DNA of 37,235 bases from positions 1 through 37,235 of IMG/VR virus record IMGVR_UViG_3300034374_000801. One strand, written 5' to 3'. This document shows positions 14,927-30,003 of the stretch, in pieces (position 1 is the first letter of the stretch; each line of letters opens with the position of its first letter). The notes below the pieces were generated by a model, which was given only the letters and a program-made list of their open reading frames with translations, did not search any database and had not been told where the DNA came from. The DNA comes from a virus. Position numbers and translations under genes: made by a program.

Positions 14927-14967
14927 GTTGTCCTTATGTAAGGCAATGTTATCCTTACTACGACAAC
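14927..14967 (-). other. Second intergenic hairpin
   Basis: gttgtc (14927-14932) pairs with gacaac (14962-14967), and gtaagg (14938-14943) with ccttac (14953-14958), leaving a nine-base loop. A nested ccttatgtaagg palindrome lies in the left arm and allows an alternative fold. It is adjacent to the conserved hairpin and has no counterpart in module B. Between this and the neighbouring genes I see no further coding potential. Confidence 0.45.
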
Positions 14968-14988
14968 CCCATCAATTGCTATATCAGG

Positions 14989-15480
14989 TTAAAAGGGAAT
15001 GTCATCACCCGCAGAGTGCGGCTTATTATTGTTAGAAGAGTTACTAACAACATAACCATCGTCAACATAATCAAAGTCCTCTCCATAGGGGATTAGGTTG
15101 ACAACCTGTACAGCAATCAGATCAGCGGATACGCCATGCTTCTTGTTGTATTCGTATTCATAAACTTTAAACTTAACATTAACATCACTGCCATTACCGA
15201 TCAGTGAGTTATCCCAAGGGTTGCGCTTTGAATCCACAACAGTAGGTGCTTCACGCTCAGTACCATCACGCTTCATAACCTTGCGCTTGATCTTAATAAA
15301 GTCACCTCTCTCATCACCCTTGTTCTGTATGTTCAGGCCAATGCTTTCTAACTCAACCTTGGTCTTCTCATCTAATGTTACATCAATGCACCATGCTGGT
15401 TCATATGTTGTGTTAGGAGCGCATACGCTTGCCCAATATGCTTTACCAGATACGAACTTTATTGAGTTTTCCATTTTCAA
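14989..15480 (-). CDS. ssDNA-binding protein, T7 gp2.5-like, copy A
   Basis: 163 residues. An OB-fold-like beta-rich body (AYWASVCAPNTTYEPAWCID onward) ends in a flexible Asn/Ser linker and an acidic tail closing with DDIPF. The terminal Phe after acidic residues is the feature by which gp2.5 contacts polymerase and primase-helicase. Copy B (27027-27497) aligns throughout and also ends in an acidic EDVPF. A sigma70-like promoter lies just upstream at 15508-15536, so ssb probably starts a transcript. Confidence 0.8.
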   Translation of the reverse strand: MKMENSIKFVSGKAYWASVCAPNTTYEPAWCIDVTLDEKTKVELESIGLNIQNKGDERGDFIKIKRKVMKRDGTEREAPTVVDSKRNPWDNSLIGNGSDVNVKFKVYEYEYNKKHGVSADLIAVQVVNLIPYGEDFDYVDDGYVVSNSSNNNKPHSAGDDIPF

Positions 15481-15507
15481 TTTTCCTTTTCAAGTTTCAG
15501 TTTTGTA

Positions 15508-15536
15508 TTTATGCCAGACTTGATTACCAAAGTCAA
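15508..15536 (-). promoter_or_regulatory. sigma70-like promoter before ssb, copy A
   Basis: On the minus strand, TTGACT, 17 bases, CATAAA. The box quality is moderate, but the position is conserved: module B has TTGACA-17-TACTAT at the same place. A cttga/tcaag inverted repeat touches the -35 box and could be an operator. Confidence 0.55.
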
Positions 15537-15547
15537 GCACTTTTTCA

Positions 15548-16117
15548 TCATAAAAGTTTTACTGCATCCTTGTAGTCAAGAAGAACTTCTTGTCCTACGT
15601 TGTAACAAGGTCTAACTAATTTACGATTACACCTGTTAAAATTTTCCTCTTGTACTAACAAGTTAGAAGGATAAAATCCTTTGAGACAAAATAAATCTTC
15701 GTCTAGTTTAACCATCAATGCAAATATGTCAACAACATTTTTACTTTCTGCACTTGTTGCAAGTAACATTCCAGTCTTGTGGTGTGTGGTCTTAACATCT
15801 ATTGTCAGACCGTCAAGAACTAAATCACCTAAATCAGTTTTAGATGACATTGATCTTGGATATATTTCCATTAACTGTGTTGGATAAAGTCCTGACAGTT
15901 TAAAGAAACTTAACTCACCTCCCGCTCCTATTATATCGAAGGCATAAGGATCATTCTTATCTCTTTTCGCGGCAGTGTCTTTTACTTTAGACTGTCTGTT
16001 ATTATCATACCTAGCTTTTCCAATAATTGTGTATAACTCTACCTCACTAGGTTCAAGTTTAATTAATGAGTCTCTGACCAGTTGTTTCCTATTTTGTACT
16101 CGCTGTCTAGTGGGCAT
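15548..16117 (-). CDS. Nuclease-like PD-(D/E)XK protein between ssb and polymerase, A
   Basis: 189 residues. A probable nuclease core is seen as GGELSFF (E68), DLGDLVLDG (around D98) and IDVKTT (D107-V-K109). The first 55 bases overlap the polymerase gene, and an aggaag ribosome site precedes the ATG. In module B the same slot holds a 164-residue protein (27782-28276) with GE, D and DVKT in the same order but otherwise little alignable sequence. The catalytic role is inferred from these residues; substrate and partners are unknown. Confidence 0.55.
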   Translation of the reverse strand: MPTRQRVQNRKQLVRDSLIKLEPSEVELYTIIGKARYDNNRQSKVKDTAAKRDKNDPYAFDIIGAGGELSFFKLSGLYPTQLMEIYPRSMSSKTDLGDLVLDGLTIDVKTTHHKTGMLLATSAESKNVVDIFALMVKLDEDLFCLKGFYPSNLLVQEENFNRCNRKLVRPCYNVGQEVLLDYKDAVKLL

Positions 16118-17724
16118 TTTATCAACAACTTCCTTTCAGTTTCTTTCATTGCTTTCTTCGTTATAGAACCAAACGATAAAGCATGTGGTTTAAAAACTTC
16201 AAACTGATACTCATCGTGTATTGATGCAACTAAATCAGCTTTTAATTTTAACTTGTTGTAAAGGAGAGTAATGTCTACTAACCATTGCTTACATATAACT
16301 GCTCCTGCTCCCTGAATGATAAGATTAACTGCTGCATGTTGATTGCGAACCTTCAATCTTCTGCCATCCAGTCCACGTATATACCCTAATCGAGATGTCT
16401 TGTCAACCTTTTGTCTGAAGGTTGCGAGTGCCGGTACGTTAGAAAGAAACGTATCAATCAGGCGCTGTCCATCAGTTGATGTACCTCCTACGATACTGCC
16501 TATCTTAGCTGCGCCAGCGCCGTAAATAAAGGCATAGATAAATGTCTTTGCTTGGTCACGAGTTTCTAGCCCTGCCGCTTTCTGATTAGCAGTATGAATG
16601 TCACCCTCGACAACTTCTTTCGTGAAGTTAGGATCGTCAAGATAGTGTGCCAATGCTCTTAGCTCAAGAGAACTAGCGTCACAACCAACAAGAACATTAT
16701 CAGGTTTTGAAACAGTCCAACACTCACGGCACTCCTTACCATAAGGAGAATATCCTGCTGGAACTTGTGCCATGTTTGGACTGTTATGTGCCATACGTCC
16801 AGAGATAGCACGAAGTGTAAGAACTTTTCCATGTACTTTTCCATCCTCTTGTACAGCATCTATCCAAGACTGAACTTGTGAAACTCTTTTTTGTAGAAGA
16901 AGATACTCTGCAATTATTTTTGCTTCAGGAATATCTACTTCCTTCAGAACGCTTTCATCCACGATTGGATGACCCTTCTCAGTCTTTTTATTAGGTTGCC
17001 AACCCTGCTCCATTAGGCGTTGGGCAATCTGTTGTCTGCTGGCAGGATTAAAGATAATAATCTTATCCTTTAATCTCTTACCTGTCTTGTCAGAGTATCT
17101 TTCTTCTATAACAGGAGGGTAACACTCTTGAAGATCAGATTCAATTTGTGTTGCCTTATCACGCAACCTGCATACTAAACTCATAGCCTTCTGTAAGTCA
17201 AGTGTAAATCCATTACTCTGCTGCTTAGATATCAAAGCTCTGATCCTGTACTCTAGATCAATGGAACGTCTGCTCATCTTTGCCTTCTGGCATTCCATCT
17301 TGAGGTGAATGTATAGCCTCCCAGTAAGATCAACATCACGTTTACAATACGTCAACATCTCTTCAGAAAAGTTGCTGAAATCGTGAAAGTCAATCTTGTT
17401 GTAATGGAAAGTGTTACCCCATGCCTCTAGAGAATGACCACCTTCTCTAACAGGGTCAAGAAGTTGTGACAGGATAAGAGTATCTTCCAACTGGTTTAGT
17501 TGGATGTTCGACCCTGTAAGTCTGTTGAGTACAGGAATATCAAACGATACAATGTTATGTCCAACAAACTTGCTAAACTGTTTACAATCAACAGGAAACT
17601 TTTTGTAACAATCTTCTTCAGTCCACACATGATATTTACCTGTCTGAGTTTCTTTGGCAACGATACAGTGAACCTTTGTAGCATCAAGACTATCTGTCTC
17701 AATGTCAATTAAAACCTCCGTCAT
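16063..17724 (-). CDS. DNA polymerase, family A (T7-like), copy A
   Basis: 553 residues from ATG 17724. A longer frame to 17763 exists, but the start at MTEVLIDIETDS aligns with copy B (MKHVVDIEADS) and cuts the overlap with the helicase gene to 20 bases. Exonuclease motifs: D7-x-E9, FVGHNIVSFDIPVLNR and YCKRDVDLTG. Polymerase motifs: A (DASSLELRAL), B (DQAKTFIYAFIYGAG) and C (ASIHDEYQF). So both proofreading and synthesis should work. It is the replicative polymerase, acting with the primase-helicase encoded just upstream. It lacks the 20-odd-residue insertion seen in copy B near residue 230. Confidence 0.92.
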   Translation of the reverse strand: MTEVLIDIETDSLDATKVHCIVAKETQTGKYHVWTEEDCYKKFPVDCKQFSKFVGHNIVSFDIPVLNRLTGSNIQLNQLEDTLILSQLLDPVREGGHSLEAWGNTFHYNKIDFHDFSNFSEEMLTYCKRDVDLTGRLYIHLKMECQKAKMSRRSIDLEYRIRALISKQQSNGFTLDLQKAMSLVCRLRDKATQIESDLQECYPPVIEERYSDKTGKRLKDKIIIFNPASRQQIAQRLMEQGWQPNKKTEKGHPIVDESVLKEVDIPEAKIIAEYLLLQKRVSQVQSWIDAVQEDGKVHGKVLTLRAISGRMAHNSPNMAQVPAGYSPYGKECRECWTVSKPDNVLVGCDASSLELRALAHYLDDPNFTKEVVEGDIHTANQKAAGLETRDQAKTFIYAFIYGAGAAKIGSIVGGTSTDGQRLIDTFLSNVPALATFRQKVDKTSRLGYIRGLDGRRLKVRNQHAAVNLIIQGAGAVICKQWLVDITLLYNKLKLKADLVASIHDEYQFEVFKPHALSFGSITKKAMKETERKLLIKCPLDSEYKIGNNWSETH

Positions 17725-19375
17725 TAAACTCGTTCCCTTCTGGATCTTCACCCAAGTTATCAACTTCGTGCAGTCTACCAGTTTCCTTATTGAAAAATAA
17801 GTGGCTTGCTACACCAGTGTCTCCTGCATAACGATTCTTTAAGACACGAATTGTTGTAGTGTTAGCAATGTTAGGATCATCTGACTGTTGATCACGTTCC
17901 ATAGCTATGACTGCATCACTAAGCTGTGCAATGGACTGTGACCCACGTAGGTGAGCAAGGCTAACTTCCTTACCATCCTCATGTCCTTTGTCCGTTCCAG
18001 TCCTACGCAGATGAGAGACAAGTAATAGAGCTACGTTTGTTTCTTCAACGATGGAACGCAGCTTGGTCATAAGATTATCAATGTTTCTACGTTCATCATC
18101 ACCTTCCAATCCTGAAACAAGGATTGATAGATGGTCAAGGAAAATCCACCGGCAGTCCAAAGCCTTAATCATATACCGTATGCGTGCAAGTATCTCGTCA
18201 GTCTGCATCGAACCAAAGTGATCGAAGGCAAAGAACCTTCTCGTTCCTACTGTTGCTTCCTGCCACTTCTTCAAGTCCTCACGGGGAAACTGTTCCCGTA
18301 TCTCACGAATGTAAATGCGTGCATTAGCCTCGACAGACATGAGATGGAAGATGGTTGATCGTACATTTTCTTCTAGAGAAATAACACCAATGTTTTCTTC
18401 AGTGTTGTTTAGTACATGATGCATCAGTTCACGCATGACACTTGACTTGCCAGTACCTGTGCCAGCGGTAAATGTAACAAGCTCACCTGTTCGTATGCCA
18501 TACAGCTTTTCGTTCAACCCTGCAAAAGGATAGAGGCATGTCTTATACTGCCCTTCCTCGTAGAGAGCATCACCCATATCAGCTAGATTTAGAATACCTG
18601 CTGGAGTGTAGACCTTAGCATTCCACCATGCCGTAGTAAATGCTTCTCGCTTACCATTAACTAGGTAATCACTAGCATCCTTGTAGTCAGGGAGGTTTAC
18701 GATCTTGCATTTGTTTGGTTCAAACAGACTAGCAACCTGCTGCGCTGCCTTACGTCCATGCTCATCGTTATCAAAGCTAAGAACAATGTTATCGAATGCG
18801 TTGAGGTATTCAAAGTTTGCTTTGCAGTTACGATGCGCTGACTGTGCACCATCTTTGATGGATAGGACAGGCCATTTAGAACCTAGCATCTCATATGCTG
18901 CGAGAGCATCAAGCTCACCTTCACAGATAGTGACGTACTTTCCACGGGCTGGAAAGATGTTCTGACCAAAGAGTGTACCACGACTAAGTGATCCTGCTGG
19001 TGCAGCAAAAAATTCTTTCTTTGCTACGTTCCTGATCTTGTCACCTATATGATTGCTGGCACTGTCATAGTACGGGTAGAGGTGACAAGAACCATGAACA
19101 GGATGGTCGTACTGTCTTACGTTATATGCTTTACATGTTGCAGCACTAATCTTTCTATCTTCGATGGCTGCTATTTTTCCTACATTACTGAGAGGCTGTA
19201 CGTTTGTAGTGACTGGTGTTTGCGTTTGAGTTGTCATACCGTGTCTTTCTGTATTGTGATATGAGCATGAAAAACAATGTCCATGACCATCAGCGTATAG
19301 AATATACGCATCACTAGATGCACATTTAGGGCAAGGACCGCGACTTACTACTCTGTCTTTATCTTCAATCATCAT
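17705..19375 (-). CDS. Primase-helicase, T7 gp4-like, copy A
   Basis: 556 residues in the order zinc finger, TOPRIM primase, linker, RecA-type helicase. Zinc ligands C15/C18 and C34/C37 (GPCPKC and HCFSC) recognise template sites. TOPRIM shows CEGELDA (E152) and FDND (202-204). The helicase has Walker A AGTGTGKS (304-311), Walker B WIFLDHLSIL and HLRGSQSIAQLSDA. It unwinds DNA and makes primers for the polymerase encoded next. The C-terminus is acidic and ends GGFN, near the acidic-aromatic tail by which gp4 binds polymerase. It overlaps the upstream small gene by 11 bases. Confidence 0.92.
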   Translation of the reverse strand: MMIEDKDRVVSRGPCPKCASSDAYILYADGHGHCFSCSYHNTERHGMTTQTQTPVTTNVQPLSNVGKIAAIEDRKISAATCKAYNVRQYDHPVHGSCHLYPYYDSASNHIGDKIRNVAKKEFFAAPAGSLSRGTLFGQNIFPARGKYVTICEGELDALAAYEMLGSKWPVLSIKDGAQSAHRNCKANFEYLNAFDNIVLSFDNDEHGRKAAQQVASLFEPNKCKIVNLPDYKDASDYLVNGKREAFTTAWWNAKVYTPAGILNLADMGDALYEEGQYKTCLYPFAGLNEKLYGIRTGELVTFTAGTGTGKSSVMRELMHHVLNNTEENIGVISLEENVRSTIFHLMSVEANARIYIREIREQFPREDLKKWQEATVGTRRFFAFDHFGSMQTDEILARIRYMIKALDCRWIFLDHLSILVSGLEGDDERRNIDNLMTKLRSIVEETNVALLLVSHLRRTGTDKGHEDGKEVSLAHLRGSQSIAQLSDAVIAMERDQQSDDPNIANTTTIRVLKNRYAGDTGVASHLFFNKETGRLHEVDNLGEDPEGNEFNDGGFN

Positions 19376-19556
19376 GATGAATCAGACGATACTCGAATTT
19401 GTTGGAAGAGTCTACCACTAATTTATTTTTTAATAGGGTAGTCTTAATACCTAGATACTTCATTAAAGCCTGTAGCGACAGAAGAACATCTTCCATTTCT
19501 TCGCTTGTTCCTTCATCTACAATATTATCTGTCTGACTGTTTATTACTCTGTACAT
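19365..19556 (-). CDS. Small protein upstream of primase-helicase, A
   Basis: 63 residues from ATG 19556 (a TTG at 19571 would add five). The reading is MYRVINSQTDN, then a helix of Glu, Leu and Met (EEMEDVLLSLQALMKYL) and a short basic-hydrophobic end. A 65-residue protein in the same slot of module B (31770-31967) has the same length, an MFYV start and a similar helix, so the two may be distant homologues. Function unknown. Confidence 0.6.
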   Translation of the reverse strand: MYRVINSQTDNIVDEGTSEEMEDVLLSLQALMKYLGIKTTLLKNKLVVDSSNKFEYRLIHHDD

Positions 19557-19606
19557 TTGAATCTCTTTCAATAGGGTTGAGAGTAATTAAGAGTTACTTA
19601 CTTATG

Positions 19607-19780
19607 TTATTTTTCCTGTTCAAAAATATTATTTACAAACCTATAGTCGTTTTGTTTAATCTCTTCTGTTTCTTCTGCGGCTAAACGCTTCGCTTCTTTG
19701 TAAGGATATCCTTCCTTTAGATATATCTGAATTAATTCTTTGAAGATAATCTTTCTATCTTTCTCCCATAACTTTTTCAC
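19607..19780 (-). CDS. 57-residue conserved micro-protein, copy A
   Basis: GTG start directly after the stop of the 47-aa gene, 57 residues. The reading VKKLWEKDRKIIFKEL, later EGYPYKEAKRLAAEE, aligns along its full length with a 57-residue frame at 32853-33026 (KNLWVKDRKIVFREL and EGYSSKEAKRLAKQE). Conservation between the two modules, despite many silent and replacement differences, is the evidence that it is a gene. A helical, charged protein of unknown function. Confidence 0.75.
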   Translation of the reverse strand: MKKLWEKDRKIIFKELIQIYLKEGYPYKEAKRLAAEETEEIKQNDYRFVNNIFEQEK

Positions 19781-19924
19781 TTAACCCTGTCCTCTATATT
19801 TTTTATAATTTCTTTTTTTACTTTTATTTTTAGGAGAAGTATTAACTGACTTGCCAATACTGGTTCTCATATGTTGGTTTCCTGTTCGCACTTTAGATAA
19901 ACCAATTTCTTTTTTACCTGCCAT
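19781..19924 (-). CDS. 47-residue basic micro-protein, copy A
   Basis: 47 residues, very basic. The second half, RTSIGKSVN then SPKNKSKKR and YKKYRGQG, is matched in module B at 33521-33661 (RTSIGRSAN, QPKNKHKRQ, WKKYRGQGS), while the first half differs. In both modules it directly follows thyX. A nucleic-acid-binding role is plausible from charge alone. The shared GQG ending and identical position show it is a gene despite its size. Confidence 0.72.
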   Translation of the reverse strand: MAGKKEIGLSKVRTGNQHMRTSIGKSVNTSPKNKSKKRNYKKYRGQG

Positions 19925-19933
19925 TTTGTCCTC

Positions 19934-20602
19934 TTAACTTTTCAAGTCGTTTGTCAAAGCATTCCATGACACAGGAAATAAAGGTTCAATAATCTTACTC
20001 CATTCTTCAGCAAGTATCTGTATCTCACGTTGTGCGTGCTTGTCAATACGTAATTGATATGCTCTTGCCCAAGCAGCTAAAGAGCCTGTAACGTAATAGC
20101 TTGTGTACAAACATTGTGGCAATACCATTCTTGCCTGTTCTGGACATACTCCTTCTTTCAGTAACTGCTTGTAGTGATACTCACAGGTATCAATTACCTT
20201 TTCCAAGAACATATCACCATAGGATGGAGTATCAATAGGTTCTTCACTGCTACCTTGCTTCACATTCTCTGCTGACTTACGCCATCTATCAGGACGAAAG
20301 TATTCCCTATCGTCAGTAACATATCGTCTACTAACTTCATTGTAAGTAAACCCTACTACATGTTTGAACCTTTGCCTAGCTACAAATATTGGAACTGTTT
20401 CTCTTATCGTTATGATTGGGTGTGTAAACGGGGTGAAGTGATTGTTGTTTGAAAGATAATTAATTAACTTTTTATCTTTGTCCGACAACTCCTGCCGTAC
20501 TGAGTGGTCTGCTTCCCATTTACTTTCTTTATTAAAAGAAACTCTAGCGGCGTTGACAACACGAAGATCATCTCCTAAATGATCAATGTATTCTGCTCTC
20601 AT
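19934..20602 (-). CDS. thyX: Flavin-dependent thymidylate synthase, copy A
   Basis: 222 residues. ThyX makes dTMP from dUMP with FAD, NADPH and methylene-tetrahydrofolate. Family landmarks: VVNAARVSFNKES near the start, HFTPFTHP, the RQRFKH...NEVSRRY signature (about 76-94), and the C-terminal WARAYQLRIDKHAQREI helix. The usual RHR-x7-S motif is degenerate (KH in place of RHR), and copy B shows the same change. It stands four bases beyond the start of the coiled-coil gene next to it, in the dTTP-supply part of the operon with dCMP deaminase. Confidence 0.88.
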   Translation of the reverse strand: MRAEYIDHLGDDLRVVNAARVSFNKESKWEADHSVRQELSDKDKKLINYLSNNNHFTPFTHPIITIRETVPIFVARQRFKHVVGFTYNEVSRRYVTDDREYFRPDRWRKSAENVKQGSSEEPIDTPSYGDMFLEKVIDTCEYHYKQLLKEGVCPEQARMVLPQCLYTSYYVTGSLAAWARAYQLRIDKHAQREIQILAEEWSKIIEPLFPVSWNALTNDLKS

Positions 20603-20799
20603 TTAGTTAATTTATCCTTGCTTAATTCTTCAAGTTCATCTTCAATTTTATTTAACTTATTTTTCAAGAAATCTTTTTCATCTGTTAACTCTTTAATCTG
20701 TTTATACTGTTCATAGATAACTTTAGTTAATTGTTTGTTATCTTCTTTAGCAGCTAATAGAAGTTCTTTGTTTTTAATATTAGAATTATTATTCACCAT
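20599..20799 (-). CDS. Small coiled-coil protein, module A
   Basis: 66 residues, almost entirely Lys/Glu/Asn/Leu with heptad-like leucines, predicted as one long coiled coil. The start overlaps the stop of the 57-aa gene at 20789-20962 and the end overlaps the thyX start by four bases. No equivalent is seen in module B. Function unknown. Confidence 0.6.
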   Translation of the reverse strand: MVNNNSNIKNKELLLAAKEDNKQLTKVIYEQYKQIKELTDEKDFLKNKLNKIEDELEELSKDKLTK

Positions 20800-20962
20800 T
20801 CTTTAATTCCATAAGTACATAGTTAATAGTAGTATATATCTTAACTGCTAAGTCTTGTAACTGAATTTCCTGCTGTAGTGTTGTATAACGTATGTCATTT
20901 GCACTATCAAGTATTTCATTTAACTTACCAATTAAGATATTTATTTCTTTATCTTTGTTCAT
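20789..20962 (-). CDS. 57-residue helical micro-protein, module A
   Basis: From ATG 20962 (ATGA overlap with the upstream stop) to TAA 20789, reading MNKDKEINILIGKLNEIL and ending MELKNGE. It is helical and Leu/Ile-rich without a membrane segment. It fills the only gap between two overlapping genes, and both of its ends overlap its neighbours as elsewhere in the operon. No homologue in module B. Function unknown. Confidence 0.6.
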   Translation of the reverse strand: MNKDKEINILIGKLNEILDSANDIRYTTLQQEIQLQDLAVKIYTTINYVLMELKNGE

Positions 20963-21219
20963 GGTGCGTTGTCACCATATCCACCAGTCGGCCACTTATC
21001 ATCGAATAAGTTCGTTTGATTAGTAACATCATCAGTGATAATGTTTACTGAGCATTGACAAAATCTTGAGGAAACTTCTTGTAACAATTCTTTTCTTCGT
21101 AGTAAATCTTCTTCAGTTGGTTTGTAAAAAGTATCACGATTAGTTTCCAATTCTTGAATAAGAATATTCATTAATTTTTGATTATCTATTTTACTAAACC
21201 ATTCTTTATCTTCCGTCAT
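20959..21219 (-). CDS. Small acidic protein, unknown function
   Basis: 86 residues, with an ATGA overlap to the dCMP deaminase gene upstream (21216) and to the micro-gene downstream. Acidic, with a CxC (RFCQCSV) in the middle and a short Gly/Trp-rich end (KWPTGGYGDN). I do not recognise it. Absent from module B. Confidence 0.6.
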   Translation of the reverse strand: MTEDKEWFSKIDNQKLMNILIQELETNRDTFYKPTEEDLLRRKELLQEVSSRFCQCSVNIITDDVTNQTNLFDDKWPTGGYGDNAP

Positions 21220-21626
21220 AGTAAAACAACCTCCTCTTTTCTACCCGTTGAATAGTAAACATTATCAATATCAAACTCTACTATACATCTATAGCATCCG
21301 TCGCATGGTTTAGCAAGTGCTAACTTAAAAATGTTTGATCTTGTGCTGTCTTTCTTGACTCTGACAACAATTAGTGTACAGTTCCTAGATAAATCCTGCT
21401 GCTGTCTTACCGCATTCTTAATTGCTGCCACCTCTGCATGTAGATGAATACAATGTTCATGTCTACCATACTTAGCCTGAAAGGGACTGGTCTTATAGCT
21501 ATTAACTCCAAGACCTATAAGGTTATTCTTATGCCATACTCCTGCTGCTAACCGGAAACATTTTACTGGGTTGTGTATATCCTCCGCGATCCTACGAAGA
21601 ATCGTTACTCTCCTGCTCAAGTCCAT
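21216..21626 (-). CDS. dCMP/cytidine deaminase-family enzyme, copy A
   Basis: 136 residues. Zinc-site residues H63-A-E65 (HLHAEVAAI) and P-C108-x2-C111 (KPCDGC) define the deaminase family. Placed with thyX, the likely reaction is dCMP to dUMP, feeding thymidylate synthesis. Compared with typical dCMP deaminases it is short, lacking an allosteric insert. Copy B (34355-34783) keeps HAE and PCxxC and a NSYKT-PFQAK segment. An activity on free cytidine cannot be excluded from sequence. The start overlaps the upstream gene by 35 bases. Confidence 0.78.
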   Translation of the reverse strand: MDLSRRVTILRRIAEDIHNPVKCFRLAAGVWHKNNLIGLGVNSYKTSPFQAKYGRHEHCIHLHAEVAAIKNAVRQQQDLSRNCTLIVVRVKKDSTRSNIFKLALAKPCDGCYRCIVEFDIDNVYYSTGRKEEVVLL

Positions 21627-21780
21627 TGTATTCTTCTATCTCTGCTGTTGTCCAAAGGTGAGCGTTGAGTTGAGCATCGGGCCAATGATCAAACACCATT
21701 GGTTCAAGGGTTCTCTCATCCACAACATATAACCAATCATCTTTATCTTTTGTCTGGTAAACCTTAACTCTCCACGGCAT
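21592..21780 (-). CDS. Small Trp-rich protein, unknown
   Basis: 62 residues, four tryptophans, begins MPWRVKVYQTKD and ends acidic (LEQESNDSS). It overlaps both neighbours by 17 and 35 bases. No motif recognised and no copy in module B. Confidence 0.55.
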   Translation of the reverse strand: MPWRVKVYQTKDKDDWLYVVDERTLEPMVFDHWPDAQLNAHLWTTAEIEEYNGLEQESNDSS

Positions 21781-22024
21781 TTATTTTAATCCCTCTAGTA
21801 GTTCCATTTTCTTTACTCATTGCATGATATTCTTTGCAGACTTCTTCAAACGCATCAAAGAGCTTTTGAAATCTCATACTATATACACCCTTTAATCCAA
21901 GAAGTACATTAGCAATGTCATCAGTAGACATATCTGTTTCTATAACATTCTCATAGAGAAGGTCAATGTCATCTACAACACGCCAAGCATTCATAATCTC
22001 TTGTTCAAGACCAAATATTTTCAT
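21764..22024 (-). CDS. Small helical protein carrying the direct repeat
   Basis: 86 residues, helical and acidic in the first two-thirds. The segment VCKEYHAMSKENG near the C-terminus is encoded by the 25-base direct repeat at 21816-21840. The same codons in the same frame recur as a relic after the MazG gene at the A/B junction, so a related gene probably once stood there. Function unknown. Confidence 0.6.
   Translation of the reverse strand: MKIFGLEQEIMNAWRVVDDIDLLYENVIETDMSTDDIANVLLGLKGVYSMRFQKLFDAFEEVCKEYHAMSKENGTTRGIKINAVES
21816..21840. repeat. 25-bp direct repeat, left copy
   Basis: ctcattgcatgatattctt plus tgcaga, identical to 22963-22987; the similarity goes on for about 13 bases on the left (minus-strand downstream) side with two mismatches. 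It lies inside the 86-aa gene. The two copies bracket 1122 bases holding three small genes, and recombination between them would remove that block. Confidence 0.9.
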
Positions 22025-22428
22025 TATTCAACCTCAACCATTTCACCATTGCGAACAATGTGATGTTTAACTTCATTTGATGAAAACCTAAAGTATGCTC
22101 GACCGCCGTCAATCATATTACCGTTCTCAAACAATTTATAATCATGACGATGGGCACTATACTGTAGATCACCATCATCATCTTCGACAAGTCTAAACTC
22201 TACAGATTCAATTCGATCTGCATTAGCAATCATAAGATTGCCGTTCTGATATAGACCAAAATACCGATTACCGAACTGAGGGTGTGGAGTTTCTCTGTAA
22301 AAGATATCCATTGCATGTGCCCCATCGTCTATCGCACTTGTACACACATAGGTAATGGGAACACCATCCTTCTTAGAGAAGATTTCACAAACCTTTTGAG
22401 TGTCAAATAGTGGTTCATGCTTGATCAT
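22024..22428 (-). CDS. Conserved small phage protein, unknown
   Basis: 134 residues, alternating beta-like segments, many aromatic and acidic residues (FGLYQNGNLMIANADRIE in the middle), no signal or membrane segment. Its stop overlaps the next ATG by one base. It lies within the 1.1-kb block between the direct repeats. No homologue in module B. Function unknown. Confidence 0.6.
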   Translation of the reverse strand: MIKHEPLFDTQKVCEIFSKKDGVPITYVCTSAIDDGAHAMDIFYRETPHPQFGNRYFGLYQNGNLMIANADRIESVEFRLVEDDDGDLQYSAHRHDYKLFENGNMIDGGRAYFRFSSNEVKHHIVRNGEMVEVE

Positions 22429-22476
22429 TCAAACTACTCCCAATCTTGATATCTCATTCGAGAATCCAATCCATTA

Positions 22477-22716
22477 TCACCATCCCGGCGCTGTATATTC
22501 TGTATGTTTCTTATAGAAAGCAGACCCATCTACTCCATATGCAGGACACACTGAAATGTACTCAGGCAAACCCACTCTATCCTTCTCACCTGCTTCTCCA
22601 CAGATAAAAAACACACCAGTCTTTTCAGACATTGCATGTTTGAGAATGGTCTCGTACTTCTCAACCTTCTTACGAAGGAGTAGTACTTCCTCATAGTAAT
22701 CCATCGTATCAGTCAT
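22477..22716 (-). CDS. Small phage protein with coiled-coil start
   Basis: 79 residues. The first half is a heptad-like helix (YEEVLLLRKKVEKYETILKH), the second half contains FFICGEAGEK and CPAYGVDG. Two cysteines might bind metal but the spacing is not a known finger. It overlaps the 81-aa gene by eight bases. A 48-base gap downstream shows nothing clear. Confidence 0.55.
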   Translation of the reverse strand: MTDTMDYYEEVLLLRKKVEKYETILKHAMSEKTGVFFICGEAGEKDRVGLPEYISVCPAYGVDGSAFYKKHTEYTAPGW

Positions 22717-22954
22717 CCTCTTTCACCATTGGATTTATTTCCATCCACTCGGACCAATCAGCATGTGGCATATAGTATTCAAGCACAGTTTGAATCGCTT
22801 TAAGCAAAACATAGTCTGGCTCAAGAACGTCATCTGAACAGTCAACCTTGTCAAACTGATTGTTCACATGATAAGCGTCCTTTAGCTCATCAACGATAAC
22901 TTCGTCAACGATAACTTGGACGCAATCTTCAACGTTAAGTGTAATCGTTTTCAT
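22709..22954 (-). CDS. First gene of module A, small acidic protein
   Basis: 81 residues, acidic, ATG preceded by the strong site gaggaaac. The last bases of the right-hand 25-bp repeat supply part of that site. Inside the gene a 15-base tandem repeat encodes the VIVDE-VIVDE pair. Similar short proteins of the MKTITLNVED type occur in marine phages, without known function. Being next to the A/B junction, it may belong to either parental phage. Confidence 0.6.
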   Translation of the reverse strand: MKTITLNVEDCVQVIVDEVIVDELKDAYHVNNQFDKVDCSDDVLEPDYVLLKAIQTVLEYYMPHADWSEWMEINPMVKEDD

Positions 22955-22962
22955 TTTGTTTC

Positions 22963-22987
22963 CTCATTGCATGATATTCTTTGCAGA
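22963..22987. repeat. 25-bp direct repeat, right copy, with gene-tail relic
   Basis: Identical to 21816-21840. On the minus strand it reads ICKEYHAMRKQNE in the frame that continues past the MazG stop codon, matching CKEYHAMSKEN of the 86-aa gene. Only about 12 codons survive, so this is a relic of a related gene or the homology at which two genomes were joined. Confidence 0.85.
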
Positions 22988-22991
22988 TCAG

Positions 22992-23348
22992 TCATCGCTC
23001 ATCCCCATCACCTTTCAGTACGTTACGTTGCTGTCTGTCTGCCAGCTTCTGTAAATTACCCTGTGCTATGTCTTCAAGTTCCAGACCAAGGACATATGCC
23101 ATCTCGCTGACGAACCAGAGTACATCACCAAGTTCTTTATTAATAGTAGGAAGGTCAATGTGATCTTTGTCACCTCGCACCCACTTGCTGACAAGAGAAG
23201 CTACCTCTCCAGCCTCACTAGCAAGACCAAGAGCAGTATAAATAATGCCGTTATCCTTCGGATAGACGGCAGTCTTATGTGCTTCCTCCTGATATTTTCT
23301 AAAAGTAACTCCAGTTAAATACTTATTATCGTAAGGCACTGTACCCAT
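22992..23348 (-). CDS. MazG-like nucleotide pyrophosphohydrolase
   Basis: 118 residues from ATG 23348, which has a taggagt ribosome site; an upstream ATG at 23399 would overlap nrdJ by 47 bases and lacks one. MazG-family metal ligands are visible as SEAGEVASLVSKW and KELGDVLWFVSE (the ExxE and ExxD pairs). Such all-alpha enzymes hydrolyse NTPs or dNTPs to monophosphates; phage versions may adjust nucleotide or ppGpp pools. It follows nrdJ copy B; in module A that slot holds the 54-aa frame instead. Confidence 0.78.
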   Translation of the reverse strand: MGTVPYDNKYLTGVTFRKYQEEAHKTAVYPKDNGIIYTALGLASEAGEVASLVSKWVRGDKDHIDLPTINKELGDVLWFVSEMAYVLGLELEDIAQGNLQKLADRQQRNVLKGDGDER

Positions 23349-23352
23349 ACTC

Positions 23353-25038
23353 CTATACTCCACAAGAACCACCATGCTGCGTAATGTCGCAGATGTCATG
23401 CGTCTCTACACTCTCCTCAAACTCTTCACCAAGCTTGTCAACTGCTTCAGCGTATGAGACAGATGTTAGTGGCTGACCACCACGGCACCCATCAGGGTAC
23501 ACAGTAAAGCCACGTAGACGATGGGCATAAGATGCAAGGGTGTTAGCAAAGTCATCAACTGTATCTTCGTTGTTAAGTTTGCTTCCCCATGTTGGGATGT
23601 TAATCGTGGAAGAGATTGACATATCCACATAGTCCTGAACGTCAGCTTGGAAAGCCATACGGCGCTTGTAGTCCTGTGCAAGATCAAGTGCGGACTCAAT
23701 GTTGTTAGGGTCTACACCATGCACATCAATGATTTCCTGTGCAGCGGAGTCAACAACGTACTGGTAGTGCCACCTGTTCTGTCCTTTTAGATACCGCCGT
23801 TTATAGGCGACAGCAAATATAGGCTCAACACCAGTGGAAGTCCCAGCCAAAATGCCAATCGAACCCGTGGGGGCAATTGCTCTGTTAGCCACAGGACGGG
23901 AAACAGACATAGCATCAGCAAAGTCACGGCTAACACTATCAGAAACGCCTTTGTAGATTCCCAACCACTGATGCAATTCGGGAGTGACCTCATAACGGTA
24001 TCCTTTCTTAATCAGCCACTCGTGCATACCCATAAGGCCAAGGCCCAAGCGACGGTTCTTTTCACGTGTCTCATATACCTTGCTATAAGGCAGCTTGGCA
24101 CGTAGGGTTCCGCAAAGAAGGAACTTGGTTCCTAGCTCTACGATCTGAGTAAATTCTTCAAGGCTATCAATGCGGCCCATGTTAATGCTACCCAAGTTAC
24201 ACACGTCTGAGTCATCTTCAGATGTTACCTCAGTACAAGCATTGCGTAGCGTTTCATTCTCTTTATCAAAGAAGTTAAAAGAGAACCCCGGTTCGGCGGT
24301 TGATAGGGCTTGACGAACATTTGTCCGAAATACGCCACCTACTTCTCCTGTCTTCCAATAGTTAGTAAGCCATGCAGTGTCATAGTTGACAGAGATGTTT
24401 GTCATGTCCAGAGGGGCAATGTAGTTAAAGTCCTGCTCCTTTACCTGCCCAACGGTAAAGCCTGTGTTGCCTACGGGCATTTCATACCAGTTCTTAGCAG
24501 CAAGAAACTGTGTTACATCAGGGTGTTGCCAATTAAGACTGGCATAGATAGCTGACCTACGTGAGCCACCCTGCATGACACGACGACCAATCTCGTTAAT
24601 CATCTGCATCTTGGGGATAGGCCCACTGGAAAGACCGCCTGTGCCGTTAAGCACACGACCTTCTTCACGATACACAGAGTAGTCAACACCAATGCCCCCG
24701 CCTGTCATCAGGCAGGACTCAGCCTTCCAAGATAGGTTGGCCCAGTCTTCACGTGTGTCTTCTTCAGCACGTAGAAGGTAGCAGTTATTGAAGAACTTGT
24801 TGGGACGACCAGCATAATATAGGTAGCGTCCACCCGGAATGAACTTCAAGTCAGTAACCATACGCTTGAGTTCGTCCTTCTCATCTTGTGTCATGTAGTC
24901 TTGACACACATCGTCCACTAGAACATTAGCTAGTGCCGACCAAGTTTCACACCCATGATGGGCATACTTATGTTTGAAAATATCCTCACTGAACTTGGAT
25001 CGGAACATAGGGTTTTCGTTAGAGCGGAAATGAGGCAT
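23353..25038 (-). CDS. nrdJ: Class II ribonucleotide reductase, copy B
   Basis: 561 residues, the same length as copy A and the most similar pair in the window. All catalytic cysteines are kept: NNCYLL, NACTE, DVCNLGSIN and the two C-terminal cysteines (HDICDI and GSCGV). Differences cluster at residues 40-60 and other surface-looking positions, and the DNA is more GC-rich. It uses adenosylcobalamin, like copy A, so a host able to make or import B12 is implied. The gene begins three bases after the DUF3310 gene and ends five bases before MazG. Confidence 0.9.
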   Translation of the reverse strand: MPHFRSNENPMFRSKFSEDIFKHKYAHHGCETWSALANVLVDDVCQDYMTQDEKDELKRMVTDLKFIPGGRYLYYAGRPNKFFNNCYLLRAEEDTREDWANLSWKAESCLMTGGGIGVDYSVYREEGRVLNGTGGLSSGPIPKMQMINEIGRRVMQGGSRRSAIYASLNWQHPDVTQFLAAKNWYEMPVGNTGFTVGQVKEQDFNYIAPLDMTNISVNYDTAWLTNYWKTGEVGGVFRTNVRQALSTAEPGFSFNFFDKENETLRNACTEVTSEDDSDVCNLGSINMGRIDSLEEFTQIVELGTKFLLCGTLRAKLPYSKVYETREKNRRLGLGLMGMHEWLIKKGYRYEVTPELHQWLGIYKGVSDSVSRDFADAMSVSRPVANRAIAPTGSIGILAGTSTGVEPIFAVAYKRRYLKGQNRWHYQYVVDSAAQEIIDVHGVDPNNIESALDLAQDYKRRMAFQADVQDYVDMSISSTINIPTWGSKLNNEDTVDDFANTLASYAHRLRGFTVYPDGCRGGQPLTSVSYAEAVDKLGEEFEESVETHDICDITQHGGSCGV

Positions 25039-25041
25039 CAG

Positions 25042-25317
25042 CTACTCCTTTTCATTAGCGGTATCGTGGACATGAAGCATGATAATAGCATAGTGGATAA
25101 TCTTGAGCAAGTCCTTACGGTTCTTTCCATCCTTTTTTCCATACCTTTTCCAGTATTTCAATATGTTGCCCATACAAAATCCTTCGCCATAATCAGCATC
25201 AAGGATTGTGTCAGTTGCCTGATACTTACTAGACGCATAGTGCTGTGTATAAGTTGCGTCTACGTAGTCCTGAATCTCATCGAGATACAGGTTCTCATCG
25301 AACTTGTACTTTGTCAT
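25042..25317 (-). CDS. DUF3310 / T7 gp1.7-like protein, copy B
   Basis: 91 residues. It keeps HYAS, GEGFCMGNILKYWKRYGKKDG and DLLKIIHYA, aligned with copy A at 12625-12975 but with a shorter N-terminus (MTKYKFDENLYLDEI) and a shorter tail. The same family-based inference of a nucleotide kinase-like role applies, with the same uncertainty. It is located between the helical protein gene and nrdJ, exactly as in A. Confidence 0.65.
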   Translation of the reverse strand: MTKYKFDENLYLDEIQDYVDATYTQHYASSKYQATDTILDADYGEGFCMGNILKYWKRYGKKDGKNRKDLLKIIHYAIIMLHVHDTANEKE

Positions 25318-25325
25318 TGTTACCT

Positions 25326-25664
25326 CTAGATGTTTGACAAGATAGAGTTTATTTTCTTTCTTGTGTATTCAACTTCTTTGCTCCGTATAACCTTGTATGC
25401 AAAGCTTCTTGTGTAACCCGCATCAATACCTGCCATGTCACACACGGCTGTAAAGTCTTCAGAGGTTACGCCCACACTGGCAAAGAACCATGCTTGTGCA
25501 TGTGTCCTGTCCAGCTTGGCGCGTTCAGATTCATTTTTCGTTGATGGCTTAGACGCATCAAGCAACGCCTGTAAGATGACAGTCATAAACAGGATTCGTT
25601 CAGGTGACGATTGCTCCTGCATGTAGTCTTCAATCTCAATAAAGATGTCTGTCACTGCAGCCAT
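25326..25664 (-). CDS. Conserved helical phage protein, copy B
   Basis: 112 residues, starting MAAVTDIFIEIEDYM. The C-terminal half (WFFASVGVTSEDFTAVC, GIDAGYTRSFAYKV) is nearly the same as copy A. Overlap with the endonuclease gene is only 13 bases, a cleaner arrangement than in module A. Function unknown; a helix-turn-helix-like pattern is the only clue. Confidence 0.65.
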   Translation of the reverse strand: MAAVTDIFIEIEDYMQEQSSPERILFMTVILQALLDASKPSTKNESERAKLDRTHAQAWFFASVGVTSEDFTAVCDMAGIDAGYTRSFAYKVIRSKEVEYTRKKINSILSNI

Positions 25665-26065
25665 TCCTCTGGAATACCATCAGATAGTTTGCAGTACAGG
25701 AAGCCGTGCCTCTCGCACCATTGAGCATATGTCTTTCCATTTGGTGCTTTAGTTAGCTTCTTGTTTGGATTGTCAAACACAAAGCGTATGTCAAGATGTG
25801 GGTGTGCCTCTTTAATCCGTAGATGTTTTGCCCTATCGTGAGCCTTGAACCATCCTTTGACTTCAAGATATACTCCATTTGGTAACAGAAAGTCAGGTGT
25901 ATATTTTCTTGTTGCAACGACAGGATACTCAATACGCTCTGTCTCGTACTTGATGGCAACCCCAAGCATAAGAAGGTACTCAGCTACAGTTACCTCTGAA
26001 CCCGATCTAAACTTCTTATTTTTTAGACCTCTTTTTGAAGACCGCTTCGCAGGTTTTCTTGGCAT
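25652..26065 (-). CDS. T7 endonuclease I-like resolvase, copy B
   Basis: 137 residues. Catalytic set E24 (RSGSE), D58 (YTPDFLLP), E68-V-K70 (LEVKGWF), then KTYAQWCERHG. It has a basic N-terminal extension of about 15 residues (MPRKPAKRSSKRG) missing in copy A, and it stops at WLQ where copy A runs on. Both are likely active junction resolvases. The start overlaps the exonuclease stop by one base. Confidence 0.82.
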   Translation of the reverse strand: MPRKPAKRSSKRGLKNKKFRSGSEVTVAEYLLMLGVAIKYETERIEYPVVATRKYTPDFLLPNGVYLEVKGWFKAHDRAKHLRIKEAHPHLDIRFVFDNPNKKLTKAPNGKTYAQWCERHGFLYCKLSDGIPEEWLQ

Positions 26066-26931
26066 TAGTCGAGACTATCCAAAGAAATTTCCTCAACGTC
26101 AGAAAGCTTTTGAGTTTGGGTAAGATAGCGGATACCGTTTGAATAGTTGAAGGCGCGAAGTCCTTGACCGTTGTTAGCATCACTCCAACAAGTTCTTTTA
26201 AAAGAACAATATACGCAGCCAGTATCAAGGCGACGATTGCCAGATTTGCCATCAGGAACATCGCTATAACACCTACTGGGAGGAGTGCTATGTCCAACAA
26301 CTCCACGAACTTTTTCAATCCGTTCTTCAGCATTAATCATCTCCAGATCATGTATGGGCAGGTAGGCAATCTCACCATTGGATTTATCAATGGCAAGAAA
26401 CCCTGCCTCTTTCGCGTTCTCTGCTTTGGCATAGGAAGAAATCTGTGCGATGTATCCGAAAGGGTCATCACCTGAAAGGTGTCCGTACTTAAACTTCCTA
26501 AACCCAAAGGGTGATGCACTCTTGAAGTCAACGAGTGTGCCGTCGATCTTACCATCAATGTGTCCTAGCACACCGTTGACCTCAACCTCCTTCTGTTCAT
26601 CCGTTACTTCATGTCCTGATGTACGAGTGAGTAGAACAAGTAGTGCTTCAAGAATATCTCCAAACAAAAATTTAATACGGGTGCTTGAAGAAAGTGTCTC
26701 CTGTGGGGCTTGGTTTATTTCATACCAAATCTTACGATCAGGTTGCCCCACAAGAGACAGTCTTAGGTTGGCCTTTCTGTCGCGCTTCTCTTCAATGGAT
26801 CGACGCACTGACATACTGACCTGCTCAATGAAGGCTTCCATGTCAGCATCTGATACCACACGCTCGTTCTCATCGGAGAACAAACTGTATATATCTTCAA
26901 CCACGGTTTCAATGGACTTATGTTCTGACAT
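26065..26931 (-). CDS. PD-(D/E)XK exonuclease (RecB/Cas4-like), copy B
   Basis: 288 residues aligned along their length with copy A. The nuclease core (FLFGDILEALL, GHIDGKIDG, VDFKSASPFG) and the cysteine cluster GCVYCSFKRTC, plus the earlier RCYSD, are all present, so a metal cluster is likely in both. The ATG has agaaaggtata before it, the same ribosome site as the 78-aa gene of module A, and the conserved hairpin lies 22 bases upstream. Role as for copy A: a T7 gp6-like function in DNA breakdown or recombination. Confidence 0.75.
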   Translation of the reverse strand: MSEHKSIETVVEDIYSLFSDENERVVSDADMEAFIEQVSMSVRRSIEEKRDRKANLRLSLVGQPDRKIWYEINQAPQETLSSSTRIKFLFGDILEALLVLLTRTSGHEVTDEQKEVEVNGVLGHIDGKIDGTLVDFKSASPFGFRKFKYGHLSGDDPFGYIAQISSYAKAENAKEAGFLAIDKSNGEIAYLPIHDLEMINAEERIEKVRGVVGHSTPPSRCYSDVPDGKSGNRRLDTGCVYCSFKRTCWSDANNGQGLRAFNYSNGIRYLTQTQKLSDVEEISLDSLD

Positions 26932-26953
26932 GGTATACCTTTCTTTTTGTTAA

Positions 26954-26978
26954 GGCTTGGTCCCGCCCTCTCCAAGCC
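26954..26978 (-). promoter_or_regulatory. Conserved hairpin with pyrimidine loop, copy B
   Basis: ggcttgg (26954-26960) and ccaagcc (26972-26978) pair perfectly around the loop tcccgccctct. Compared with copy A, the stem sequence is different but still fully paired, while TCCC and CCCTC in the loop are kept. It sits between ssb and the exonuclease gene. It lacks a T-run, so it is not an ordinary terminator. Confidence 0.6.
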
Positions 26979-27026
26979 GGTGTGCTGCTCTATATCGTGA
27001 CCGCATCCCCGTGAATGTTCTATCTC

Positions 27027-27497
27027 TTAGAAAGGAACATCTTCAGAGATAGTTGTGTCGTGCTTGTAGCCGCCATCAACGACAGGCAGAGCATCTTCAG
27101 CTTTGCTGCCGCTGTATTCTACAAGATCGACAACCTGTACAACCTGAAGGTCTGCACTCTTACCTGCACGACCTTGGTATGTGTACTCATAAGGCTTGTA
27201 CATTACATTCACCTTACTGCCGTTACCAATCAGTGTATCCTTGATTGGGTTCTTCTCACTGTCAACAACAGACGGTGGCTGGTTGTTATCGCCACGAGCG
27301 TTACGAACCTTACGCTTGATCGTGATAAAGTTACCACGATCATCTCCCTTGTTCTTGACGTTAAGACCGTCGCCCTGAACCTTGGATAGATTGTCATCGT
27401 CTAGGCATACGTCAATTTGCCACACACCATCTGCATCAAACGTGGTGTTAGGGGTTACAACTGATGCCCAGTATGCGGTTCCAGAAATTACAGTCAT
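27027..27497 (-). CDS. ssDNA-binding protein, T7 gp2.5-like, copy B
   Basis: 156 residues. The start AYWASVVTPNTTFDADGVWQ, the central NKGDDRGNFITIKRKV and the acidic C-terminal EDVPF agree with copy A and with the gp2.5 design of OB fold plus acidic-aromatic tail. An aaggaga ribosome site precedes the ATG, itself preceded by a small gccac/gtggc hairpin and a strong promoter at 27549-27577. Confidence 0.8.
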   Translation of the reverse strand: MTVISGTAYWASVVTPNTTFDADGVWQIDVCLDDDNLSKVQGDGLNVKNKGDDRGNFITIKRKVRNARGDNNQPPSVVDSEKNPIKDTLIGNGSKVNVMYKPYEYTYQGRAGKSADLQVVQVVDLVEYSGSKAEDALPVVDGGYKHDTTISEDVPF

Positions 27498-27548
27498 TTA
27501 CTTTCTCCTTTGCAGTGCCACTCAACGGTGGCTGTTGATGAGGTATAC

Positions 27549-27577
27549 ATAGTACTCGTTGTGTTTAGGGGTGTCAA
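27549..27577 (-). promoter_or_regulatory. sigma70-like promoter before ssb, copy B
   Basis: On the minus strand, TTGACA, 17 bases, TACTAT: a full -35 box, ideal spacing and a good -10 box. The expected start is about 45 bases upstream of the ssb ATG. The position is conserved with module A. No phage RNA polymerase gene is in the window, so use of the host sigma70 enzyme is plausible. Confidence 0.72.
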
Positions 27578-27587
27578 CAGTTTTTTT

Positions 27588-27785
27588 TCAACCGTCGAAT
27601 TTTGATTCATGTTCTCTCATGTTTTTTTCTCCAGTGAAGAACAGGTCGTACTGTGAGTGGTAGTCGTCGTCATCATCACGAGTACGCCTCTTGTTCTTCA
27701 TGTATGTCTTCAGGTTAAGGATCGTGTTAAACCATATGCCAATTAGCACGAGCGTCTCCACGGTTAGGATTAGGTATGACATCAC
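27588..27785 (-). CDS. Small single-span membrane protein, module B
   Basis: 65 residues. One transmembrane segment at residues about 4-24, a basic stretch (KNKRRTR) on its inner side, then a run of five Asp and a polar tail. Topology by the positive-inside rule puts the long tail in the cytoplasm. The start overlaps the upstream gene by four bases. Absent in module A. Function unknown. Confidence 0.55.
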   Translation of the reverse strand: MMSYLILTVETLVLIGIWFNTILNLKTYMKNKRRTRDDDDDYHSQYDLFFTGEKNMREHESKFDG

Positions 27786-28276
27786 TGTATCTCAGGCTTA
27801 GTCATTGGTTTCTCCAGTCGGTTGATAGCCATGTTGTAACAATCCGCACGGACGATAAACCCATTGTCACCATCCTGTTCCCCACGACGAAGGAACCGTG
27901 CGTCTTTAATATACTTCTTCTTGTCGTAATGCCCTAGTACCCATGCCTTGCTGTTGTCGTAGTGGACACGACAAAAAATGTAGATGTTACAATTCTGTCG
28001 TGTATTAAAGTTTGCCACTGAACAATCGTAGTAGTTCTTTGGGGCAGTGCTGGTTCGCTTTGTCTTGACATCAGCGGTGCGTCCATCAGGTAGAACCATG
28101 TCGTACTCGTAGGTATGGCTGATCTCGCCGCCGTAGATACGTTGTGCAGCGATCTCACCAAGGAATCCGGCAATGTTGCCACCACCATGTTCAATGGAGT
28201 TGTTAAGCTTTCCCATATCGGCAGACCTTTTAGCTGCTATGGTGCGATCTTCGTCTGTGAGTTCCACAATCTGCAT
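27782..28276 (-). CDS. PD-(D/E)XK-like protein between ssb and polymerase, B
   Basis: 164 residues. The catalytic-looking set is E41 (GFLGEIAAQR), D59 (YEYDMVLPDG) and D69-V-K71 (ADVKTKR), typical of the PD-(D/E)XK nuclease fold. The ATG overlaps the polymerase stop (TGATG). The 189-aa protein in the same slot of module A shows the same three-part motif but a different sequence elsewhere. An endonuclease helping replication or host DNA breakdown is a reasonable guess. Confidence 0.58.
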   Translation of the reverse strand: MQIVELTDEDRTIAAKRSADMGKLNNSIEHGGGNIAGFLGEIAAQRIYGGEISHTYEYDMVLPDGRTADVKTKRTSTAPKNYYDCSVANFNTRQNCNIYIFCRVHYDNSKAWVLGHYDKKKYIKDARFLRRGEQDGDNGFIVRADCYNMAINRLEKPMTKPEIQ

Positions 28277-30003
28277 CAGTGTGTCTCGCTCCAGTTGCGT
28301 CCTATTTTGTATTCACTGTCCAAGGGACAACGAACCTTGAGAATTTTTTCAGTTTCTTTCATAGCTTTCTTGGTGATCTCACCAAACTTTTCAGCATGTT
28401 CACGTTTGACATCGAACTGATACTCGTCGTGGATACTGGCAACAAGGTTGGCATCTAGCTTCTCTTGCTTTGCCGTCTTCACGATCTGTATCAGCCACTG
28501 CTTACATATAACAGCACCTGCTCCTTGGATCAAGAGGTTAAGTGCAGAGTGTGCGGACCTGACCTTGAGCCTACGCCCATCAAGTCCCGGTACGTAACCT
28601 CGCTGTGCTGCCTGTTCAACACGTTGGCGTAGTGTCTTAAGTGCAGGTACGTTGGAAAGGAACTGGTCAATCAATCGTTGCCCATCCTTTGCTGTACCTC
28701 CTACCACACTACCAATCTTGGCAGCACCTGCACCATAGATAAACGCATAGATAAACGTCTTCGCTTGGTCACGTGTCTCCAGCCCTGCGGCGTTCTGGTT
28801 GGCGGTGTGAATGTCACCGTTGACAACCTCGTTGATAAACGCTTTGTCATTCAGGTAGTGGGCAAGTCCACGTAACTCAAGCGAACTCGCGTCACAACCT
28901 ACCAGAACTCTGTCAGGCGCTGAAGCAATCCAACACTCTCGACACTCCTTACCAAACTCAGAGTAGGAGGCAGGAACCTGTGCCATGTTAGGTGCATGGT
29001 GTGCCATACGCCCACTGACTGCCTTGAGTGTAAGCACCCTACCGTGGACCCTACCATCGTCATCATAGTAGTTGATCCACTGCTTGATCTGTGACACACG
29101 CTTCTGCAGTAGCAGGTAACGTGCAATCAACTGTGCTTCAGGGATGTCCACATGCTTGAGAACTCCTTCATCTACGATAGGGTGTCCCTTCTCTGTGAAC
29201 TTGGTAGGCTTCCAGCCACGATGCTGTAGGTGGCGTACAATCTGCTGCCTACTAGCAAGGTTAAACTGTGGGAAGTCAACCACTGAATGTTCACCACCAG
29301 CAAACGGCCAGTCATCACCTAGATGTGATAGCCCAATCTTGGATAGTGATCCATCCTTCTTAATCTTGGGAGAAACCTCTTTGATAAAGGTGGGAAGAGG
29401 ATAGAAGGCTTCCTGTACCTGTAACTCAATCTCACCTGCCATGTCAGAGAGGCGTGACATAAGTGCCATTGCCTTGGGCATGTCAAGTGTAAAGCCGTTC
29501 TTCTGTTGCCTGTCAATCAGGAACCTGATCGTGTGTTCCATCCTGACACTCTCATCGCTGAAGTTTCGTAACTCATTCTGGAGTGTGGCATACACTCTTG
29601 TCGTCAACTCCACATCGTTGATGCAATACTTTACCATCTCGTCTGAGCAATGGGACCAGTCATTGAACTCCGTTTTAGGGAAGCCAAGTGTCTGGCCCCA
29701 TGCGTCAAGCGAGTGACCGTTATCACGCATTGGGTTTGTGATCTGCGACATAATCATTGTGTCTTCGATCTGGTCTACTGATATACGTGTGCCAGTCAGA
29801 CGGTTCAGGGCGGGTGCATCAAAGCTGATACCATTGTGCATCACGTAGCTTGTGATGTTTTGCTTGGCAAAGCTGGGCCAGTTGTTAATGCACTCACCCT
29901 CTCTAAAGGTGTGAACCTTTCCCGTCTCGACATTCTTTGCAACGATGCAGTGAATGGTGGACGGCTGTAATGAGTCAGCTTCAATGTCCACCACGTGTTT
30001 CAT
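28276..30003 (-). CDS. DNA polymerase, family A (T7-like), copy B
   Basis: 575 residues. Exonuclease motifs VDIEADS at the start, MHNGISFDAPALNR and YCINDVELTT; polymerase motifs DASSLELRGL, DQAKTFIYAFIYGAG and ASIHDEYQF. All acidic catalytic residues are kept. Compared with copy A it carries an extra segment near residues 205-240 (through KKDGSLSKIGLSHLGDDWP) in the region leading into the polymerase domain. The palm domains are similar; the N-terminal exonuclease parts are more different. It follows the primase-helicase gene with no gap. Both copies should be functional polymerases. Confidence 0.92.
   Translation of the reverse strand: MKHVVDIEADSLQPSTIHCIVAKNVETGKVHTFREGECINNWPSFAKQNITSYVMHNGISFDAPALNRLTGTRISVDQIEDTMIMSQITNPMRDNGHSLDAWGQTLGFPKTEFNDWSHCSDEMVKYCINDVELTTRVYATLQNELRNFSDESVRMEHTIRFLIDRQQKNGFTLDMPKAMALMSRLSDMAGEIELQVQEAFYPLPTFIKEVSPKIKKDGSLSKIGLSHLGDDWPFAGGEHSVVDFPQFNLASRQQIVRHLQHRGWKPTKFTEKGHPIVDEGVLKHVDIPEAQLIARYLLLQKRVSQIKQWINYYDDDGRVHGRVLTLKAVSGRMAHHAPNMAQVPASYSEFGKECRECWIASAPDRVLVGCDASSLELRGLAHYLNDKAFINEVVNGDIHTANQNAAGLETRDQAKTFIYAFIYGAGAAKIGSVVGGTAKDGQRLIDQFLSNVPALKTLRQRVEQAAQRGYVPGLDGRRLKVRSAHSALNLLIQGAGAVICKQWLIQIVKTAKQEKLDANLVASIHDEYQFDVKREHAEKFGEITKKAMKETEKILKVRCPLDSEYKIGRNWSETH

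Follow-up and report, generated by a model that had tools for sequence, protein, structure and literature searches.

When a stretch of viral DNA carries the same short sequence twice, near the place where one set of replication genes gives way to another, it must be asked whether the repeat is the point at which the two parts were joined or a trace of some older event. This question is raised by IMG/VR virus record IMGVR_UViG_3300034374_000801, whose entire 37,235 nucleotides were analysed and are called the window here. Its two gene sets, modules A and B, are attributed below to two phages, A and B. The original prediction held that a 25-bp direct repeat at the A/B join is microhomology of the kind used by illegitimate recombination or by a short-overlap assembly error.

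The repeat (CTCATTGCATGATATTCTTTGCAGA) occurs exactly twice in the window, as had been predicted, and a chance origin was rejected because none of 100 dinucleotide-shuffled sequences produced such a repeat, even when three mismatches were allowed. In a wider register (21802-21840 versus 22949-22987), 36 of 39 bases are identical. Translation of both copies bears out that each encodes CKEYHAM in frame, and the copies do bracket three small genes, of 81, 79 and 134 amino acids (Table 1). Copy 1 resides in an intact gene, here named CK after this peptide, whereas copy 2 lies in a run between two stop codons that forms no ORF (L-I-CKEYHAMRKQNENDYT-stop). This run is indeed a remnant, as proposed, but it spans 18 codons rather than 12, about 16 of which are homologous to CK. 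Copy 2 had also been placed just before mazG; on the coding (minus) strand it is instead downstream of mazG, between that gene and the 81-aa gene, whose start at 22954 it overlaps. Within the remnant lie a Shine-Dalgarno-like AGGA and the ATG at which the 81-aa gene begins (CAATGAGGAAACAAAATGAAAAC). A longer mazG ORF, extending to 23399, would overlap nrdA of module B.

Table 1. Coordinates of the features discussed, in window numbering
Feature	Position	Strand	Description
Phage A part	1..21600	.	structural genes at 1-6.2 kb (+); beyond them, on (-), the terminase small subunit gene and the replication and early genes
62-aa gene	21592..21780	-	in the window directly joined to the intact CK tail
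Shared block	21601..23354	-	mazG to 62-aa gene, 1.75 kb; near-identical in A (L010) and B (L015, L091)
Intact CK gene, 86 aa	21764..22024	-	no function assigned; weak phrog_31803 match, E 0.0075
Repeat copy 1	21816..21840	-	within intact CK gene; encodes CKEYHAM
134-aa gene	22024..22428	-	phrog_12504; relatives in 54 viral contigs
79-aa gene	22477..22716	-	also present in relatives
81-aa gene	22709..22954	-	in relatives, the gene naturally found downstream of CK
CK tail remnant	22938..22991	-	LICKEYHAMRKQNENDYT-stop, in mazG frame after mazG stop
Repeat copy 2	22963..22987	-	within CK tail remnant; also reads CKEYHAM
mazG	22992..23348	-	start set at MGTV (23348), following L010
Phage B part	23355..37235	-	nrdA, Cas4-type exonuclease, polymerase, primase-helicase, thyX, deaminase, early genes

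The origin of the remnant becomes apparent from the gene order of a relative. The window reads mazG, CK tail only, 81, 79, 134, full CK, 62, deaminase, and the 40,954-bp contig L071 reads mazG, full CK, 81, 79, 62, deaminase, thyX, helicase. A full CK gene behind mazG in a relative is what the original prediction had proposed to look for, and the intact gene of L071 occupies the very place of the remnant, as anticipated for a gene-tail relic at a recombination joint. From this comparison of gene orders, we conclude that the remnant sits at the place of an ancestral CK gene, with L071 displaying the unrearranged arrangement. Counted from the start of the repeat, the first 41 bases of the remnant match the CK/81-aa joints of L018 and L071 without a single difference, and the exact breakpoints occur in no close parent. 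The 4,749-bp contig L018 carries both forms together (mazG-remnant-81-79-134-198-CK-81'-79'-62'), its full CK gene being followed by a second 81/79 pair and accompanied by an added 198-aa gene. The window form can be derived from that of L018 by two losses, although the order of these events is a reconstruction from gene orders. The added gene (L018:3200-3796), inserted between the 134-aa gene and CK, encodes a repetitive protein with VYGNAxVFENA-like units.

The repeat, then, derives by inheritance from the end of a small phage gene, and this end also supplies the start signal for the adjacent gene. The ancestral early cluster would have been mazG-CK-81-79-62-deaminase, in which the last ~40 bases of CK also carried the ribosome binding site and start codon for the 81-aa gene. 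A rearrangement would have removed the head of this CK copy, and the tail was presumably kept because it holds the AGGA and ATG that the 81-aa gene needs to be started. A second CK gene, which is complete, now resides beyond the three small genes, where its tail is joined to the 62-aa gene. The agent would be general or phage-encoded recombination within the shared tail. If so, the locus illustrates clearly how the tail of a gene can outlast the rest: the tail starts the next gene.

By analogy, such a repeat can be regarded as an ordinary scar of phage mosaicism, in which two nearby genes or gene remnants end in the same DNA. In mycobacteriophage Island3, the adjacent small genes gp67 and gp68 have their last 18 residues and ~50 bp of DNA in common; this was attributed to recombination at gene tails that form short repeats and likened to conserved boundary sequences (PMC3029335). 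A duplicated gene tail is found here as it is there. Unlike in Island3, the second copy in the window is an ORF-less remnant that retains only the start signal of its neighbour, the copies are three genes apart, and several different genes are found downstream of the recurring joint. The boundary (linker) sequences at phage mosaic joints (PMC3029335) are likewise short conserved stretches beyond which the neighbouring gene changes, but the CK tail is also conserved as coding sequence, and its use as a recombination site is only putative.

The presence of the exact 25-mer in 13 viral contigs and in several gene contexts might suggest that it is conserved as a DNA element, such as a recombination site or promoter, beyond its coding and translation-start roles. 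We consider this improbable, as the synonymous conservation of the tail codons (0.88-0.95) is close to the 0.90-0.91 found for codons 17-32 of CK; special conservation of the 25-mer was rejected on these values. Since the tail does not stand out in codon conservation, no dedicated DNA element is claimed. A mobile cassette, excised by site-specific or repeat-mediated recombination between the copies, is a slightly poorer prospect still. The content between the copies does vary, from 1147 bp in three contigs to 1743 bp, including the 198-aa gene, in L018. However, the variable gene adjoins CK rather than the repeat, no recombinase domain was recognised in the bracketed genes, and contigs with an exact 25-mer match revealed neither an excision product nor an excision junction, which leaves the suggestion of an excisable cassette without its expected trace in this set.

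What changes among relatives is the gene behind the CK tail. It is the 81-aa gene in L007, L018, L071, L073 and L076; a predicted lipoprotein starting from the same ATG in L004, L005, L013 and L074; the 62-aa gene in the window, L009, L010, L015 and L091; and other sequence in L006, L022, L026 and L035. The CK joint thus points to exchange of small genes between marine phages. It is conceivable, if on balance doubtful, that the CK tail serves as a docking joint whose ribosome binding site and start codon let genes swap behind CK at the same base in marine phages, in which case recombination in this short tail would be a general hot spot for small-gene exchange. The exact 27-mer of the joint was absent from the bacterial genomes searched. 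CK homologues adjoin thyX in most matching phages of RCA-lineage Roseobacter (CRP-3, -5, -13, -207, -235). Besides contigs of the 53-kb type, CK relatives are present in very large phage contigs (L038/L076, 202,913 bp; L083, 381,443 bp), and three CK-bearing contigs of ~30-46 kb that lack the polymerase described below (L022, L035, L039) fall outside our phage-type classification. T4-type phages were rejected as CK hosts, as Gp23 was found only in L031, a contig fetched for the 134-aa gene.

The two modules are real, as had been predicted: nrd, the Cas4-type exonuclease, DNA polymerase, primase-helicase, thyX and dCMP deaminase are each present twice. The duplicated genes are collinear within the core, where the replication gene pairs are 68-81% identical in DNA and lie ~12.3 kb apart; the thyX and deaminase pairs were found in addition. 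The A genes have a GC3 of 0.33 and the B genes one of 0.49, a difference that holds pair by pair (A/B values of 0.35/0.53 for the polymerase, 0.36/0.54 for the helicase and 0.32/0.49 for thyX). Within a chosen set of 26 records, this polymerase occurs in 22, and two copies are carried only by the window and by two contigs of 100-107 kb. The latter, L101 (106,894 bp) and L218 (100,092 bp), each have two diverged polymerase genes ~50 kb apart and could each comprise a pair of phage genomes. Imperfect tandem repeats (93 and 60 bp) are located within the first ORF of the window, at 261-535.

The 25-mer is nevertheless not where the modules meet. Both copies, with the remnant, are found 1147 bp apart in L010 (metagenome 3300034418), L091 (3300007346) and L015 (3300025671), and 1743 bp apart in L018 (3300007640). 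As L010 has the phage A context and L091, L015 and L018 have that of phage B, the repeat structure predates the A/B join. Recurrence of the arrangement with its remnant in other genomes had been set in advance as evidence against an assembly error at the 25-mer, and it was found in both the A-type and the B-type contigs. We therefore regard the 25-mer-as-join reading as already largely refuted by these four contigs. One observation fits a graph branch at this sequence: among the 13 contigs that carry the 25-mer, 3 start no more than 41 bp upstream of it, where 0.06 to 0.12 would be expected (P ~3e-5 to 3e-4), the 41-bp threshold having been picked after seeing the data. However, both copies are inside a block common to A and B, their spacing is the same in L010, L091 and L015 and different in L018, and there is no change between A and B at either copy. 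That the assembler joined A to B at the 25-mer itself is accordingly a proposal to which we give almost no weight. Of the microhomology prediction, the recombination joint and a probable mis-join nearby have held up; the repeat as the site of that mis-join has not.

As judged from the contigs compared, the switch between A and B appears to occur at the edge of the shared 1.75-kb block. Independent contigs diverge from the window at both block edges, 21601 and 23354. L010 (A) matches 14499-23354 at 99.7% and departs at 23354, beyond which, upstream of mazG, a reading of its sequence gives a terminator-like hairpin, a 62-aa gene and a DUF932-like gene (phrog_1221). L015 (B) matches 21601-32603 at 99.9% and departs at 21601, past which are Zn-finger-like, Hsp20 and glycosyltransferase-like genes, of which only Hsp20 is a database assignment; the Hsp20/glycosyltransferase-like continuation is also present in B-type L178 and L179. 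The possibility that L010 is the chimera was rejected, since A-type L071, L093 and L096 show the same DUF932-62aa-mazG order and the same change in GC3, 0.5 to 0.35, so that L010 looks natural. An assembly error at the junction of module B nrdA with mazG was likewise rejected, as the same join is seen in L091, L015 and L018, the last with a different downstream version.

Two contigs with different metagenome identifiers reproduce the window between them. L258, an A contig (3300007344_000331), equals 945-21709, and L091, a B contig (3300007346_000554), equals 21610-37226; both end at the left edge of the block, where they overlap by 100 bases. Another A contig, L009, ends at 21881. At the right end of the window, 37150-37235 consists of short tandem repeats (CACTGGAACACAGGC), where L091 also starts (37226). 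The parts of the window therefore match different genomes, A in L010 and L258 and B in L091 and L015, by way of a shared stretch. Each block edge alone is backed by another contig, and just their combination, which links module B nrdA to module A deaminase, is confined to the window among the contigs found in IMG/VR. This contig pattern is how two phages sharing a 1.75-kb block appear in an assembly graph.

These matches could also be produced by a real recombinant that acquired two complete replication modules through homologous recombination in the shared block. The block offers 1.75 kb of homology for a crossover, a true recombinant within it would yield an identical sequence, the window is a single contig, and all of its duplicated genes are open. 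Even so, we judge such a phage unlikely. Every other contig reaching the block stops there or departs from the window, and the two gene sets differ in GC3. Genomes of HMO-2011-type phages are ~53-55 kb (PMC9038755), as are the related complete phages CRP-3 and HTVC104P, and the two replication halves inspected have one gene set each; ~12 kb of extra DNA would presumably strain packaging.

Therefore, the window is probably a chimeric assembly of two related marine phages, formed via a block that both carry. In A this block is part of the early region, and in B it follows nrdA; the assembler would have crossed from B to A by way of it. Chimeric assembly of similar viruses is well documented (PMC5610896), and as in chimeric virome contigs of co-occurring viruses, a shared block here links parts of two genomes; we found no difference from those cases, ours being judged from contig sequences alone. 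Taken jointly, a mosaic scar and a chimeric window form an explanation that we hold to be very likely correct. The public virus record, and any claim for a phage with two replication modules drawn from it, should not be trusted without the reads.

The block itself is evidently moving in nature, to judge by its variants. The single-base differences that separate the window, L010, L091, L015 and L018 do not follow the A or B context, from which we infer that the block is recombining in the population; at four differences within 22809-22946, for example, L010 and L015 stand against the window, L091 and L018. The point directly behind nrdA (23351-23355 in the window; also L177, L178, L179 and L180) is a slot whose small genes differ from one B-type relative to the next: the 79-aa gene alone in L178, an 87-aa gene and the 79-aa gene in L179, and two others in L177. 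Where the A-derived block meets phage B in L015 (10824-11522), there are two in-frame fusions, one of the 62-aa gene to the end of the 86-aa gene of A and one of the 66-aa gene of A to a B gene.
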